A stretch of 21,098 nucleotides of DNA from a virus. The notes beneath the pieces were generated by a model, which saw only the letters and a list, made by a program, of their open reading frames with translations, had not been told where the DNA came from and searched no databases. The stretch is taken from positions 1-21,098 of IMG/VR virus record IMGVR_UViG_3300026116_000651. One strand, given 5' to 3'. Positions 2,375 to 19,938 of this stretch are shown here, in pieces. The translations under genes were made by a program, and so were the position numbers. Every line of letters begins with the position of its first letter. Position 1 is the first letter of the stretch.

Positions 2375-2562
2375 AGGTTGCAGCAATAAGCCCAGCTGAA
2401 TTCACGATCAGTGTTCCGCCACGTCTTGTGGCGATGATCGATGAAGTCGTGCGCGTGCATGCCGAGCGGACTGGTGAAGCCGAGGGAGACGTTCGCCGAG
2501 GCGTCGAGATTGCGATCGTGACCGAGGGTGTGCGCGTGGTGAAAGAGGGGCTGGCGAGATGA
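2371..2562 (+). CDS. Possible ribbon-helix-helix DNA-binding protein
   Basis: A 63-residue protein starting at GTG 2371. Residues about 10-60 read as one strand (EFTISVPPRLVAMIDEVV) followed by two helices (VHAERTGEAEGDVRRGVEIA, then TEGVRVVKEG). That is the strand-helix-helix order and size of dimeric ribbon-helix-helix regulators such as Arc/CopG. The fit is by pattern only, and no signature residue clinches it. It sits just ahead of the replication initiator, so a role in autoregulation of the early operon or at the origin would make sense. Alternatively it is an unrelated small helical protein. Confidence 0.5.
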   Translation: MKVAAISPAEFTISVPPRLVAMIDEVVRVHAERTGEAEGDVRRGVEIAIVTEGVRVVKEGLAR

Positions 2563-3722
2563 GCGGACGCATCCCAGACGAGGGCAGATACTCGAAGATC
2601 TCGCGTCGAATGTGGAACGACGAGAAGTTCAGGGAGCTGTCCGCCGCAAAACCAAACGCTCAGACGCTCTTCCAGCGACTCTTGAGCGGACCCGAGCTCG
2701 GTTGCGTGCCGGGGCTCTTTCCGGCTCGCCTAAGCGGCCTTGCCGAGGCGCTGGGCTGGCCACTGAAGGCGACCGACAAGTGCTGGAAGGAGATCGCCGG
2801 GAAGAAGATGGCCGAGGCGGATTGGGTCGCTGGCCTGATTTGGGTTCCGAATTCGATCTTTCACAACTGGCCGCAAAGCATCAACGCCGTTCTCGGTTGG
2901 AAGATTGCGCTCAAGGAGATGCCCGAGTGTGCGCTCAAGCGAAAAGCTATCGAGGCACTCCGCGTTGCCCTTTCCGAACTCGGCCCACAATGGGTCGAGG
3001 CCTTCAGCAAGGCATCGGGTGTTACTTCCCGCAGGCCAAGCGGCATACCAAGCAACATACCAAGCAACATACCAAGCAACATACCAAGCAACATACCAAG
3101 CAACATACCAAGCAACAAGCCAAGCGCTAAGCCATCGCCTAAGGCATCCGGGATACCGTCCGACATCCAGGATACAGGATCAGGATCCAAGATCAGGATC
3201 TTAGCCGCTGACTCTCCCGAAGACCTGTCAGGTTCTGGGCGATCGGAGCCTCCCGAGGCCGCGGCAGCAGAGCTCGGAAATCGCCCAGAATATCAGCGAA
3301 AATATGAGCTTGCTGCGCGCAATTCGGGGGAATTCGCGTTGGCTGGTGGCGTTCGTTGGCCTGAATTCGTAGAGGTGTGGCGTGCCTGGGGAAAGCCGTT
3401 CGGGATCACCGAATTGCCCCATGTTAGCCAGCGAATCGACCGCGACATCAGCGCCGTCATCGAGGCTCTCGCGTCCGGAAGGACGGTCGCTGAGCTCGTC
3501 GAGGCCGGGAGATTGGCGGAGACCGACGACTACATCCGCGGTCTTTCGGGTGGTGGGCCGGCGAACTTCACCGCGGCGGTTCTGCGCCGCTTGCTCGCGC
3601 GTCGGAAGGTTGACCAGCCCGTGGCGCGACCCGCCGACGCTCCAGCGGTCTGGCGCGATCCTGACGCCGACAATCGGGAGAATTGGGTTCCACCGCCCGA
3701 AGACCTCGCGGGGGCCCTGTGA
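2559..3722 (+). CDS. Replication initiator, lambda O-like (origin-binding protein)
   Basis: A 387-residue protein directly upstream of the DnaB helicase. This is the position of phage initiators that bind the origin and recruit helicase. Residues about 1-155 look like a helical, winged-helix type domain (KISRRMWNDEKFRELSAAKP... LFPARLSGLAEALGW... IWVPNSIFHNWPQSINAVLGW), a start typical of phage replisome organiser proteins. Residues 163-186 are six tandem IPSN units in a low-complexity linker that runs to about 225. Residues about 235-345 are a second domain (WPEFVEVWRAWGKPFG... ISAVIEALASGRTVAELVEAG). The overall layout parallels lambda O, whose origin iterons lie inside the gene. The start overlaps the preceding stop (ATGA), and the stop overlaps the helicase GTG. 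Confidence 0.65.
   Translation: MSGRIPDEGRYSKISRRMWNDEKFRELSAAKPNAQTLFQRLLSGPELGCVPGLFPARLSGLAEALGWPLKATDKCWKEIAGKKMAEADWVAGLIWVPNSIFHNWPQSINAVLGWKIALKEMPECALKRKAIEALRVALSELGPQWVEAFSKASGVTSRRPSGIPSNIPSNIPSNIPSNIPSNIPSNKPSAKPSPKASGIPSDIQDTGSGSKIRILAADSPEDLSGSGRSEPPEAAAAELGNRPEYQRKYELAARNSGEFALAGGVRWPEFVEVWRAWGKPFGITELPHVSQRIDRDISAVIEALASGRTVAELVEAGRLAETDDYIRGLSGGGPANFTAAVLRRLLARRKVDQPVARPADAPAVWRDPDADNRENWVPPPEDLAGAL
3033..3320. other. Candidate intragenic replication origin
   Basis: Inside the initiator gene the sequence shows, in order: a degenerate 12-bp unit (3033-3044), six perfect 12-bp repeats (3045-3116), degenerate units with the same period to about 3164, then GATCAGGATC twice (3178-3187 and 3191-3200) giving four GATC sites in 23 bp. 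A locally A/T-richer patch follows around 3275-3320. Iterons inside an O-type gene next to an A/T-rich unwinding region are the established lambda origin design. That this copy works as an origin is inference. Confidence 0.5.
3045..3116 (+). repeat. Six perfect tandem 12-bp repeats (ATACCAAGCAAC)
   Basis: Six identical copies of ATACCAAGCAAC are directly abutted, starting at 3045, 3057, 3069, 3081, 3093 and 3105. Each encodes Ile-Pro-Ser-Asn in frame. Flanking units (for example 3117-3128 and 3129-3140) keep the 12-bp period but have diverged. Identity at the DNA level, including synonymous positions, points either to recent slippage expansion or to selection on the DNA itself as protein-binding iterons. 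Confidence 0.95.
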
Positions 3723-5176
3723 GCGCTGCCGTGGCGGTTGGCTCGACGTCGTTGGCGCCGATTCAGGGTCGTGTGCCAGCGTGCGACCTCGATGCGGAGG
3801 CGGCCGTGTTGTCAGCGTGCATGGTCGACCAGATGGCGTGCGACGAAGCGCTCGCGATCCTGAAGCCAGAGCACTTCTATTCCGACGCGAACCGGCGGAT
3901 CTTCGACGCGATCCTTGAGCTGATTCAGGAGCGAACGGCACCGGACTTGGTTTCGGTTGCCGCGGTCTTGCGAAACCGGAAGCGCCTCGACCAGGTGGGC
4001 GGAACTCCGTACCTAGCCCAGATTTCAGATGCGACGCCGGCGGTTGCTAACGTCGGCCACCATGCGCGGCTCGTCCTGAACGCGGCTCGCATCCGTCGAG
4101 CTTGCGCGCTGTTTCAGCAGCTCGCCGCCGAGTCGTACTCTTCGATCACGGACCCGGCGGCATGGTTGCAGCGCTGCGAAGCGGCTGTGTACCTGGCGAC
4201 GCTTGACGACAGCGAGAAGCGCTCGACCGCCGCGACGTACCGTCAAATCGCCAACGAGACCTATCAGATGTCGGTGGAGGCGGCGCGGGCGAAGACCACG
4301 ACGACCGGGTACCGGACTGGCTTCCGCGAACTGGATGAGCATGTAGGTGGGTGGGCCGCCGGTGATCTTTGGTTCGTCGCTGGTCGGCCCGGCCAGGGCA
4401 AGACGGCGTGGAGCCTTCAGTCAGGAGAAACGGTCGCGCGCGAGAACGGCGTGGGCGTGATCATGCTCTCCGCGGAGATGGCACGGCACAGCCTGATGCA
4501 GCGCTCGCTGTCGCGAGATGCGGCGATCCCGAATCGGAACGTGCGCCTTGGGCGCATGGATCGCGAGCAGTGGACGAGCCTTGCGAAGCAGGCCAAGTCT
4601 ATTGCCGACCTGCCGATGGTCGTCGACGACGACCGGAATCTCACGCCGATGCGCGTCCGAAGCAAGGTGCGGCGCCGCCTAGCCGAGCTCCGTGCGGAGT
4701 ACGGCCAAGGTATCAAGTTAGGCGCGGTGATCATCGACTACGTGCAACTGATGTCTGCCGATCAGCAGTACGACACGCGCGCCACGGAGCTCGGGGCGAT
4801 CTCGCGTGCACTGAAGATCATGGCCGGTGAATTCGAGTGCGCGTTCATCGTGCTCTCGCAGCTGAAGCGAGGTGAGAAAGGAAAGTCGAAGCGCCCTGAG
4901 CTCTCGGATCTGCGCGATTCAGGATCGCTAGAGGCGGATGCGGACGTGGTGATGGCGATCCACCGGGAGGACGCCTATCGACAGCCGAAAGAAGAGCGCG
5001 ACGGGCTTGCCGAGTTGCTCGTGCTCAAGGGCCGCAACTCCGGAGAGGGTTGCCACGTGGTCGAGTTCGATGGCCGCTACACCGGGTTCTACGAGCGTTC
5101 GAAGTCGCAACCCGAGGCAGCCGACTTCAGCGATTACGGCGACCCGCCCGGCGGCGACGATTGGAGGAACCGGTGA
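3719..5176 (+). CDS. dnaB: Replicative DNA helicase, DnaB family
   Basis: A 485-residue hexameric 5'-3' helicase that would unwind the phage replication fork. The N-terminal domain has the DnaB signature CDLDAEAAVLSACMVD (about residues 22-37) and the HFYSDANRRIFDAI helix pair. The RecA-like C-terminal domain carries Walker A GRPGQGKT at 222-229, Walker B VIIDYVQLM at 337-345 with the Asp at 340, and the later VLSQLKRGEK and DLRDSGSLEADADVVM motifs. Length is close to bacterial DnaB (about 450-470), with a slightly longer C-terminus. GTG 3719 is preferred because it overlaps the initiator stop by four bases. No separate helicase-loader gene is visible, so the initiator may load it directly or the host loader may be used. 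Confidence 0.93.
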   Translation: MSAAVAVGSTSLAPIQGRVPACDLDAEAAVLSACMVDQMACDEALAILKPEHFYSDANRRIFDAILELIQERTAPDLVSVAAVLRNRKRLDQVGGTPYLAQISDATPAVANVGHHARLVLNAARIRRACALFQQLAAESYSSITDPAAWLQRCEAAVYLATLDDSEKRSTAATYRQIANETYQMSVEAARAKTTTTGYRTGFRELDEHVGGWAAGDLWFVAGRPGQGKTAWSLQSGETVARENGVGVIMLSAEMARHSLMQRSLSRDAAIPNRNVRLGRMDREQWTSLAKQAKSIADLPMVVDDDRNLTPMRVRSKVRRRLAELRAEYGQGIKLGAVIIDYVQLMSADQQYDTRATELGAISRALKIMAGEFECAFIVLSQLKRGEKGKSKRPELSDLRDSGSLEADADVVMAIHREDAYRQPKEERDGLAELLVLKGRNSGEGCHVVEFDGRYTGFYERSKSQPEAADFSDYGDPPGGDDWRNR

Positions 5177-11492: not shown

Positions 11493-11669
11493 ATGAAAAC
11501 CTGCCTTCACTGCCAAGCGAACAACGAAGACGAGAGCCTCACGTGCTCGGCGTGCGGCGAGGGATCCTTCAGCGCTGCCGAGGCGGAAGCGGGCAAGACT
11601 GAGGCCGAGCCTGAGGCGCCTGCCGAGGCGGAAGCGGGCAAGCCGCGCACGCGTCGAGGCCGCCAATGA
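11493..11669 (+). CDS. Small zinc-ribbon protein
   Basis: A 58-residue protein with CLHCQANNEDESLTCSACGE at residues 4-23. The paired CxxC knuckles (C4/C7 and C18/C21) are diagnostic of a zinc ribbon. The rest is an Ala/Glu-rich tail made of two copies of a short AEAEAGK unit, ending in basic PRTRRGRQ. It is too short for most ORF cut-offs, but the start lies four bases after the kinase-like gene and the stop overlaps the next ATG (ATGA). Zinc ribbons of this size usually bind nucleic acid or protein. The specific role is unknown. Confidence 0.65.
   Translation: MKTCLHCQANNEDESLTCSACGEGSFSAAEAEAGKTEAEPEAPAEAEAGKPRTRRGRQ
11575..11642 (+). repeat. Direct repeat, 23 bp, two copies 45 bp apart
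   Basis: An identical 23-bp block occurs at 11575-11597 and 11620-11642, inside the tail of the zinc-ribbon gene. The 45-bp period equals 15 codons and keeps the AEAEAGK repeat in frame. The exact DNA identity suggests a recent in-frame duplication. Confidence 0.9.
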
Positions 11670-18378: not shown

Positions 18379-19938
18379 ATGACCTCATTCGTCGGCTACC
18401 CGAGCAGCTACCGCGCGCCCTTCACCGCGCTGCAACTTCTCTTCGGCCAAGGCCCGTCCAACGCACCGAGCGGCCCGCGTACCGCCATGTACATGGGCCC
18501 CAAGACCTCTGCGGGCTCGGCGACCGTCAACACGGCCTACCCGATCACCTCCGAGGCCGACGCCATCACGCTTTTCGGCACTGGCTCGCCCGTGCATCGC
18601 GCGATCCGGCGTCACCTGCTGGCGAGCACGCTCGGCAACATCGTCGGGATCTGTTACGCCGCCTCGTCTGGCGGCAGCCCCGTTGCGGCGGCCGCGACGA
18701 TCACGATCACGTTCACCAGCGGATCGAATCCGACCGCTACGGGAAACGTTCGGACCTGGGTTTGCGGCGAGATCATCGACGTAGCGTTCAACACCGCCGA
18801 CACAGCGACCACGATCGCGGCCAACATCGCGGCCGGCATCAACGCCAAGCCATGGCTGCCCTGCACGGCGTCTCCGGCTGTCGGCGTGGTCACCATCACC
18901 GCGCGCGTCGCTGGCGCCTCTCAGGGTGACGGCACGGTCGGCGTGATCCGAATCCGAAGCATCCCCGACGCCGGCAAGAACGTCATTTCGACCACGAGCG
19001 GCGCGGCGCTCGGACTCGGCACGGGCGCCGCAGGCGCGGACGGGTCGACCACGGAAGCCACCAACCTCGCGGCGGCGCTCGCGACGATCACGAACACCCG
19101 CTACTACTACATGGGCTTCACCGTGTGGGCTGCGACGCCGCTCGCGTCCATCACAACGCACGTCAACACCAAGAGCCAGGCCAACCCGGGTCTCCGCTGT
19201 CGAGCGTTCACCGCCTACACCGGCACGCTGACCGCATGCGAAACGATCGCGCTCACCGTCAACTACGAGCGGCAGCACGTCGTCCACCAGGCGAACAGCG
19301 AGTGGGATACGGCCGACCTCGTGGGCAACGCGGTCGCCATCCACCAGAGCCAAGAGGCGGCGGTCGGTGGATTCGTGCCGGACCTGTACCGCGGCAAAGA
19401 TTGGATGTGCCCACCCGCGTACGCGAACTCCGACTGGCCCACGTCGACCAACATCAACGACGCCGTGACGGACGGAATCATCGAGGTCGCGTCCGATCAA
19501 TTCGGCTCATTCATGGTGATGAGCGTGAACACGCGATCGCGTGACTCCGGCGGCACGCTGGCGGACTTCCGCGCGACGGAGACGCACCGGATCTCCTTCC
19601 TGGATGCGCTCGGGGATCGCTGGATGCAGCGCGACCAGGCAACGTACGCCGGCTTCAAGCTGATGCCGGATCAGCTGATGCCGGACGGATCGGTGAACTT
19701 CAACCAGAAGGTTCCGCCGAAGACGCTCACCCCGTCGCTTTACAAGCCGTTCGCCGCCAAGCAGATCGAAGAGGGTGGCGACAACGGCGAGATCCAAAAC
19801 GTGCCCGGCTGGCTCGCCTCACTGAACATCACGATCGATCCGAACAACGTGAGCCGCAACGTCATCACGGCCAGCGGTCGCACGATCGATATTCGGCACC
19901 AGACCGCGATCCAACTCTCCGAGACGACCCCCGGCTGA
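18379..19938 (+). CDS. Tail sheath protein (contractile tail)
   Basis: A 519-residue protein with the overall features of Mu gpL-type sheaths. It has an N-terminal 'P-S-S-Y-R-A-P' and 'TAMYMGPKTSAGSATVNTAY, PITSEADAITLFGTGSPVHR' entry, where cargo-loading sheath proteins have 'iG...G....n....v.S...a...FG.gS...'. An Ala/Thr-rich inserted domain lies between about residues 105 and 225, and the subtilisin-like fold region follows. The C-terminal strands carry FKLMPDQLMPDG, PSLYKPFAAKQIEEGGDNGE and a final 'VITASGRTIDIRHQTAIQL'. GGAG at 18367-18370 is eight bases ahead of the ATG. The next gene is the tube protein, the usual sheath-tube order. The family call is from overall pattern and order. 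Confidence 0.8.
   Translation: MTSFVGYPSSYRAPFTALQLLFGQGPSNAPSGPRTAMYMGPKTSAGSATVNTAYPITSEADAITLFGTGSPVHRAIRRHLLASTLGNIVGICYAASSGGSPVAAAATITITFTSGSNPTATGNVRTWVCGEIIDVAFNTADTATTIAANIAAGINAKPWLPCTASPAVGVVTITARVAGASQGDGTVGVIRIRSIPDAGKNVISTTSGAALGLGTGAAGADGSTTEATNLAAALATITNTRYYYMGFTVWAATPLASITTHVNTKSQANPGLRCRAFTAYTGTLTACETIALTVNYERQHVVHQANSEWDTADLVGNAVAIHQSQEAAVGGFVPDLYRGKDWMCPPAYANSDWPTSTNINDAVTDGIIEVASDQFGSFMVMSVNTRSRDSGGTLADFRATETHRISFLDALGDRWMQRDQATYAGFKLMPDQLMPDGSVNFNQKVPPKTLTPSLYKPFAAKQIEEGGDNGEIQNVPGWLASLNITIDPNNVSRNVITASGRTIDIRHQTAIQLSETTPG

Follow-up and report, generated by a model that had tools for sequence, protein, structure and literature searches.

Introduction

The iterons of phage lambda are 18-bp inverted repeats. 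In lambdoid phages, the origin of replication is found in the middle of gene O, where iterons are combined with an AT-rich, easily melted tract, and the location of an origin within the initiator gene is well established (PMC7466680). Stx phages carry six iterons and have an O protein that is 13 residues longer than that of lambda, which has four iterons (PMC7466680). In the plasmid pSK41, for which an origin within the initiator gene is likewise established, four Rep boxes occupy the central part of rep, and the linker encoded there is dispensable as protein; the RepA_N initiator of this plasmid contains a winged-helix N-terminal domain, and both of its domains are DnaD-like (PMC5703833). In bacterial oriC, DnaA boxes, which are double-strand sites, lie beside DnaA-trios, short repeats that guide unwinding (PMC10797057).

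Here we describe an initiator gene in a 21,098-nucleotide stretch of viral DNA (IMG/VR record IMGVR_UViG_3300026116_000651), hereafter the window. Judged from its sequence, the linker-coding part of this gene very probably contains the replication origin of the phage, made up of an array of 12-bp repeats and a tract of CARGAT hexamers. The window covers only a fragment of the genome, so the rest could contain another origin. The features of the locus are as follows.

2559..3722, plus strand: initiator gene (387 aa) with winged-helix N-domain, disordered linker and helical C-domain
2586..3014, plus strand: N-terminal winged-helix domain, predicted to bind DNA (AF2 model, structure matches)
3009..3044, plus strand: decayed units (KASG, VTSR, RPSG) that precede the array and share its phase
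3033..3203, no strand assigned: predicted core of the origin, with the lowest duplex stability (nearest-neighbour energies) and the highest A+C content in the window
3045..3116, plus strand: six perfect 12-bp iterons ATACCAAGCAAC (repeat analysis, lag-12 run)
3117..3164, plus strand: four decayed downstream units (KPSA, KPSP, KASG, IPSD)
3168..3199, plus strand: five CARGAT hexamers with spacings of 7, 6, 7 and 6 in frames 0, 1, 1, 2 and 2, candidate unwinding element
3285..3597, plus strand: C-terminal helical domain, about residues 243-346 (model of low to middling confidence)
3719..5176, plus strand: DnaB-like replicative helicase (Pfam DnaB_C, E 1e-69; DnaB N, E 1e-27)

Two further genes of the window, a D12-class adenine methyltransferase-like gene (951-2183) and a tail sheath gene (18379-19938), suggest a contractile-tail phage. 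A short Glu/Ala/Lys-rich ORF at 11493-11669 contains a run of 23 bases that match exactly at lag 45.

Results and Discussion

The repeat array and the hexamer tract

Between positions 3045 and 3116, the unit ATACCAAGCAAC is repeated six times, head to tail and with zero mismatches, and encodes IPSN six times. The lag-12 exact run spans 62 consecutive bases; the longest such run among 200 order-2 Markov sequences was 13. Tandem Repeats Finder gave 3036-3125 a score of 152; the runner-up in the window, at 52, was the adjoining hexamer tract. Decayed units continue the phase on both sides, with AGGCCAAGCGGC at 3033-3044 and AAGCCAAGCGCT, AAGCCATCGCCT, AAGGCATCCGGG and ATACCGTCCGAC at 3117-3164. 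Since AAGGCATCGGG at 3009 reappears as AAGGCATCCGG at 3141, a distance of exactly 11 x 12 bp, the phase begins near 3009, earlier than first noted, and can be traced to 3164. The exact copies and the in-phase units around them bear out the original prediction of six identical 12-bp repeats with decayed flanks. The extent that it gave, 3033-3164 (the codons for residues 159-202), follows the phase correctly but starts too late and misses the hexamers at 3168-3199.

Recent tandem expansion accounts best for the perfect copies. Isoleucine is encoded by ATA at 7/7 positions in the array compared with 5/277 elsewhere in the window, an excess that needs no selection because duplicating one copy suffices. 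The original prediction had proposed comparing copy number and sequence among related phages: the sister phage L001 carries 12 degenerate units of a different sequence, showing that arrays differ between sisters, and an exact search of other viral contigs returned no copy of the window's unit. No inverted repeats were found in 2950-3260, and the unit lacks the dyad core that is common in relatives.

Directly 3′ of the array, the five hexamers (CAGGAT or CAAGAT; ATCCAGGATACAGGATCAGGATCCAAGATCAGGATC) run through all three reading frames and encode QD, then GSGS, then KIRI. L001 likewise has five such hexamers, with spacings of 6, 6, 7 and 6, which encode QDQDQD and then TRSRS. When the printed sequences of the two tracts are compared, the bases are identical at 27 of 30 positions and the residues at only 3 of 12; by this measure the DNA is retained between the two phages and the peptide is not. 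The hexamer is not diagnostic alone, because a search of viral contigs for pure hexamers gave many unrelated genes.

The array and the hexamers together coincide with the least stable DNA of the window. The segment 3033-3203 ranks first for low stability among about 2,100 stretches of the 21-kb window, at lengths of 60, 120 and 150 bp, and local GC drops to 0.50, as against roughly 0.57-0.72 across most of the surrounding 3 kb. An easily melted region thus adjoins the tandem repeats, as in known origins located within initiator genes. GC-skew of the window revealed no informative switch at the array.

The initiator protein and its neighbour

The N-domain was modelled by AF2 from 39 sequences with a mean pLDDT of 88.8 (mostly above 85) and adopts a winged-helix arrangement. 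The full-length model, for which only ten sequences were available, predicts disorder for residues 158-245, followed by a helical C-domain that is modelled with low to middling confidence and presumably contacts helicase or primase. The 12-bp array is located between the two domains, inside the residues predicted to be disordered. The start of dnaB overlaps the stop codon of the initiator gene; we infer its exact start codon.

The best viral structure match of the N-domain in BFVD is a replisome organizer (E 3e-11, TM 0.81). Re-alignment of PDB matches placed the initiators 5kbj, 4pql, 4pt7 and 4pta, which we take to be RepA_N proteins, at Z 5.9-6.5; because they stand among many winged-helix regulators, this similarity reflects a common fold, not kinship. 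The Foldseek PDB list for the N-domain contained nothing below E 0.001, and a PDB sequence search gave no convincing match. In Pfam, the window's N-domain matched no family at E 0.1, that of lambda O included, and no replication family was matched over the 39 N-domain members. Among PHROG families, the window gene matches 25711 (E 1.3e-6) and, weakly, 3171 and 186. Its relatives match 25711 strongly (E 5e-36 for L228), as well as 1701 (‘DnaD-like helicase loader’) and 6251; some of their C-domains match O-like families, and annotations include ‘DNA replication protein O’ and ‘primosomal protein’. By these profile matches, the window's N-domain belongs with the phage replisome organizer/PHROG 25711 group, and its modelled fold is a winged helix near those of phage replisome organizers and RepA_N-type initiators. 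The designation ‘O-like initiator’ in the original prediction is apt for organisation and function but not for family membership, given the lack of a Pfam match to the lambda-O N-domain. A candidate from the C-domain search, a secreted-protein-like ORF, was rejected as a false match.

Conservation of the two-part element among relatives

N-domain profile scans yielded 57 homologs below 90% identity, which we used as a non-redundant set; sampling genomes of two phyla gave few homologs. At the equivalent place in most of the 57 genes we found a two-part element consisting of 11-12-bp iterons and then CARGAR hexamers. At least three chained CARGAR/T hexamers were present in 45/57 linkers, compared with 1/1100 control segments from the same loci. 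Upstream of the hexamers, the best self-match lag was 12 in 22 homologs, 24 in 18, 11 in eight and 22-23 in three (51/57 altogether). The lag was not used alone as proof because control coding DNA, too, most often has its best match at lag 12 (131/889); repeats of at least 0.75, which counted as strong, were seen in 32/57 homologs and in 21/889 controls. L250 has a perfect five-copy 12-bp array (KPTR x5) parallel to that of the window. In 45 homologs, duplex stability within the gene typically reaches its minimum at the corresponding segment, with a median of only 1.3% of locus stretches being less stable. A dyad test across the homologs showed a mild excess (173 vs 129.8 ± 9.1) and no dyad in the window's unit. 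Where its family was recognised, the 3′ neighbour gene in several loci encodes DnaB or an AAA+ loader-like ATPase. The lambdoid relatives of the initiator lack CARGAR hexamers.

Several individual loci deserve mention. Citrobacter phage Chris1 is among the relatives. In L254 (2501-3574), GAAACCTTCCCC repeats lie upstream of a hexamer array that uses every reading frame (GAGIRSRNQEQEQEQEQE). By inspection, the replication-protein linkers of three Firmicute phages, those of Exiguobacterium (L293), Geobacillus (E2; L294) and Psychrobacillus (L296), contain GTATCGATA-type repeats of about 11 bp, with purine-rich GAAAAA-type repeats after them, at the same place. A hypothetical gene of Proteus mirabilis pR997 (L295; NZ_KY433363.1, 1386-2255) is a distant initiator homolog (28%); the genes before it encode a LexA-family regulator and a small HTH protein, a context like that of SXT/R391-type elements. 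The E. coli record p727A3-47K (L291; CP100067.1) is a circular 47.7-kb plasmid that carries a lambdoid-type initiator member and replication protein P and may be a phage-plasmid.

Apparent iterons within codons of the presumed recognition helix

In the clade comprising L091, L092 and L228-L284, the codons for the presumed recognition helix (EAFREAF) themselves form GAAGCCTT units with 12-bp spacing, at about nt 160-200 of the N-domain match. The motif [AG]AAG[CG]CTT forms two clusters per gene, and its density outside the gene is only 0.11 per kb. Codon identity in the recognition helix is 0.77 (p 1.4e-4). These phages appear to possess a second iteron cluster within the codons of the DNA-binding domain itself. 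A comparison of EAF codons between N-domain and linker failed as a control, the N-domain codons being iteron-like too. The recognition region reads KATDKC in the window and EAFREAF in most relatives, and the N-domain codons of the window contain no copy of its unit.

Linker cores of the type AANNNTT occur in 40/46 members with F in the recognition helix and in 2/10 others (p 7.5e-5, kinship ignored), an association that is partly confounded by peptide content. It hints that recognition helix and iteron change together.

Selection on DNA or on the encoded peptide

The original prediction took identity of the copies at synonymous positions as a sign that the DNA is the selected entity. We set this argument aside, as recent duplication gives the same result; the hexamers, the stability minimum and the homology of position carry the DNA-level case for the window. 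The proposal itself is favoured by other evidence from the family. Arrays with an 11-bp period exceed a synonymous-codon null (z 6.8 for L255, 6.0 for L097 and 5.0 for L260), which favours the DNA because such a period cannot encode a peptide repeat of equal period. Hexamers in a non-zero frame occur in seven cases: the window, L001, L244, L248, L254 (all three frames), L255 and L288. A quick N-domain tree with many weak forks implies at least six changes of hexamer frame and five of period. In frame-shifted hexamer tracts, 49/57 four-fold sites end in A, compared with 9-28% in the rest of each gene, a descriptive figure since the tracts were chosen for the motif. Within the L091 clade (21 members), codon identity at conserved residues reaches 0.80 for the linker, compared with 0.46 for the remainder of the N-domain (p 5e-7), and linker leucine is encoded by TTA at 13/14 sites although TTA is rare in N-domains. 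On these sequence comparisons, the two-part element is kept as DNA across the family, even where the encoded protein changes.

The repeats could instead matter as protein only, as a flexible Pro/Ser-rich linker that was expanded by replication slippage and whose DNA has no role. The linker is predicted to be disordered, Pfam ‘PT disordered repeat’ matches weakly, under the family's cut-off, and the perfect copies look recent. The window and L001 also have an xPSx peptide repeat in common, retained in L001 with other codons, while their DNA units differ, as expected of a protein-level repeat; variation in frame-0 hexamers, too, falls mostly on third codon positions, as would be expected if a QE peptide were conserved. 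We nevertheless regard this explanation as unlikely, for it leaves the 11-bp arrays, the three-frame hexamers, the codon conservation in relatives and the stability minimum unexplained. Neutral low-complexity DNA, in which slippage repeats in an unconstrained linker are inherited with frame changes, would fit the tolerance of disordered linkers for repeats and the differences between sister arrays. Slippage alone would not, however, keep the CARGAR/T hexamer and the 11-12-bp period across N-domains with as little as about 25-30% identity, nor four-fold sites at A, and we consider such neutrality highly improbable.

A DNA role other than that of an origin, namely an initiator binding site for autoregulation or copy control, deserves consideration because initiators often bind their own gene, and the second iteron cluster within the N-domain codons of the L091 clade could be read in its favour. 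The adjoining hexamer tract and the stability minimum fit an unwinding element, and lambda and pSK41 provide parallels that speak for an origin, which makes a purely regulatory site very unlikely.

A model for initiation

If the linker-coding segment is the origin, as we think very probable, the winged-helix N-domain would bind the tandem iterons as a cooperative assembly, which would open the neighbouring least-stable stretch. The strand-asymmetric hexamers may serve in unwinding or as a repeated single-strand signal, and the C-domain would recruit the DnaB encoded by the next gene, which would then be loaded. As the linker peptide is disordered and tolerant, the DNA is free to change in copy number, unit sequence and reading frame.

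We further entertain, as a possibility short of probable, a combined reading: a large uncharacterised group of phage initiators would share an origin of contiguous 11-12-bp iterons and CARGAR/T hexamers retained as DNA in any frame, the latter acting as a DnaA-trio-like, sequence-specific single-strand element; in one clade the recognition-helix codons would be iteron copies, with helix and iteron changing together (in the window, KATDKC with CATACC units). If so, the gene encodes its own DNA reader using its own target sequence.

The analysis turns a linker repeat into a predicted replication origin and provides a recipe for locating origins in many uncultivated phages, namely to look inside winged-helix initiator genes for an 11-12-bp array with hexamers after it. 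One DNA element in three reading frames forms a natural series in which selection on DNA can be told apart from selection on protein, and initiators with differing iterons offer a set for working out recognition.

Comparison with known systems

We found no description of the two-part layout of contiguous 11-12-bp units and hexamers in the open-access literature searched, and we know of no experiment on the replisome organizer/DnaD-like initiator subgroup of the window. By inspection, the phage replisome organizers of Geobacillus virus E2 and Psychrobacillus PVJ1 resemble it in having repeats of about 11 bp and purine repeats at the same place; the window's own protein is divergent (E 1.3e-6 to PHROG 25711). 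With bacterial oriC the resemblance is one of layout only, as the initiator is unrelated and the repeats are hexamers, not trinucleotides.

Like the RepA_N plasmids pSK41 and pSK1, the window combines a modelled winged-helix N-domain (fold similarity Z 5.9-6.5) with repeats in the centre of the gene; unlike them, it has no Pfam match to PF06970 and carries a contiguous 12-bp array instead of four Rep boxes. With lambda and lambdoid O genes it has in common the position of repeats in the middle of the initiator gene, the easily melted tract that follows them and a copy number that varies between relatives. No Pfam match joins the N-domains, and contiguous, dyad-free 12-bp units followed by a hexamer tract take the place of lambda's arrangement with its AT-rich tract, in agreement with the original suggestion of a design distinct from that of lambda. 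Taken together, the window fits the organisational class of origins located inside their own initiator gene, which does not imply membership of the lambda O or RepA_N families.
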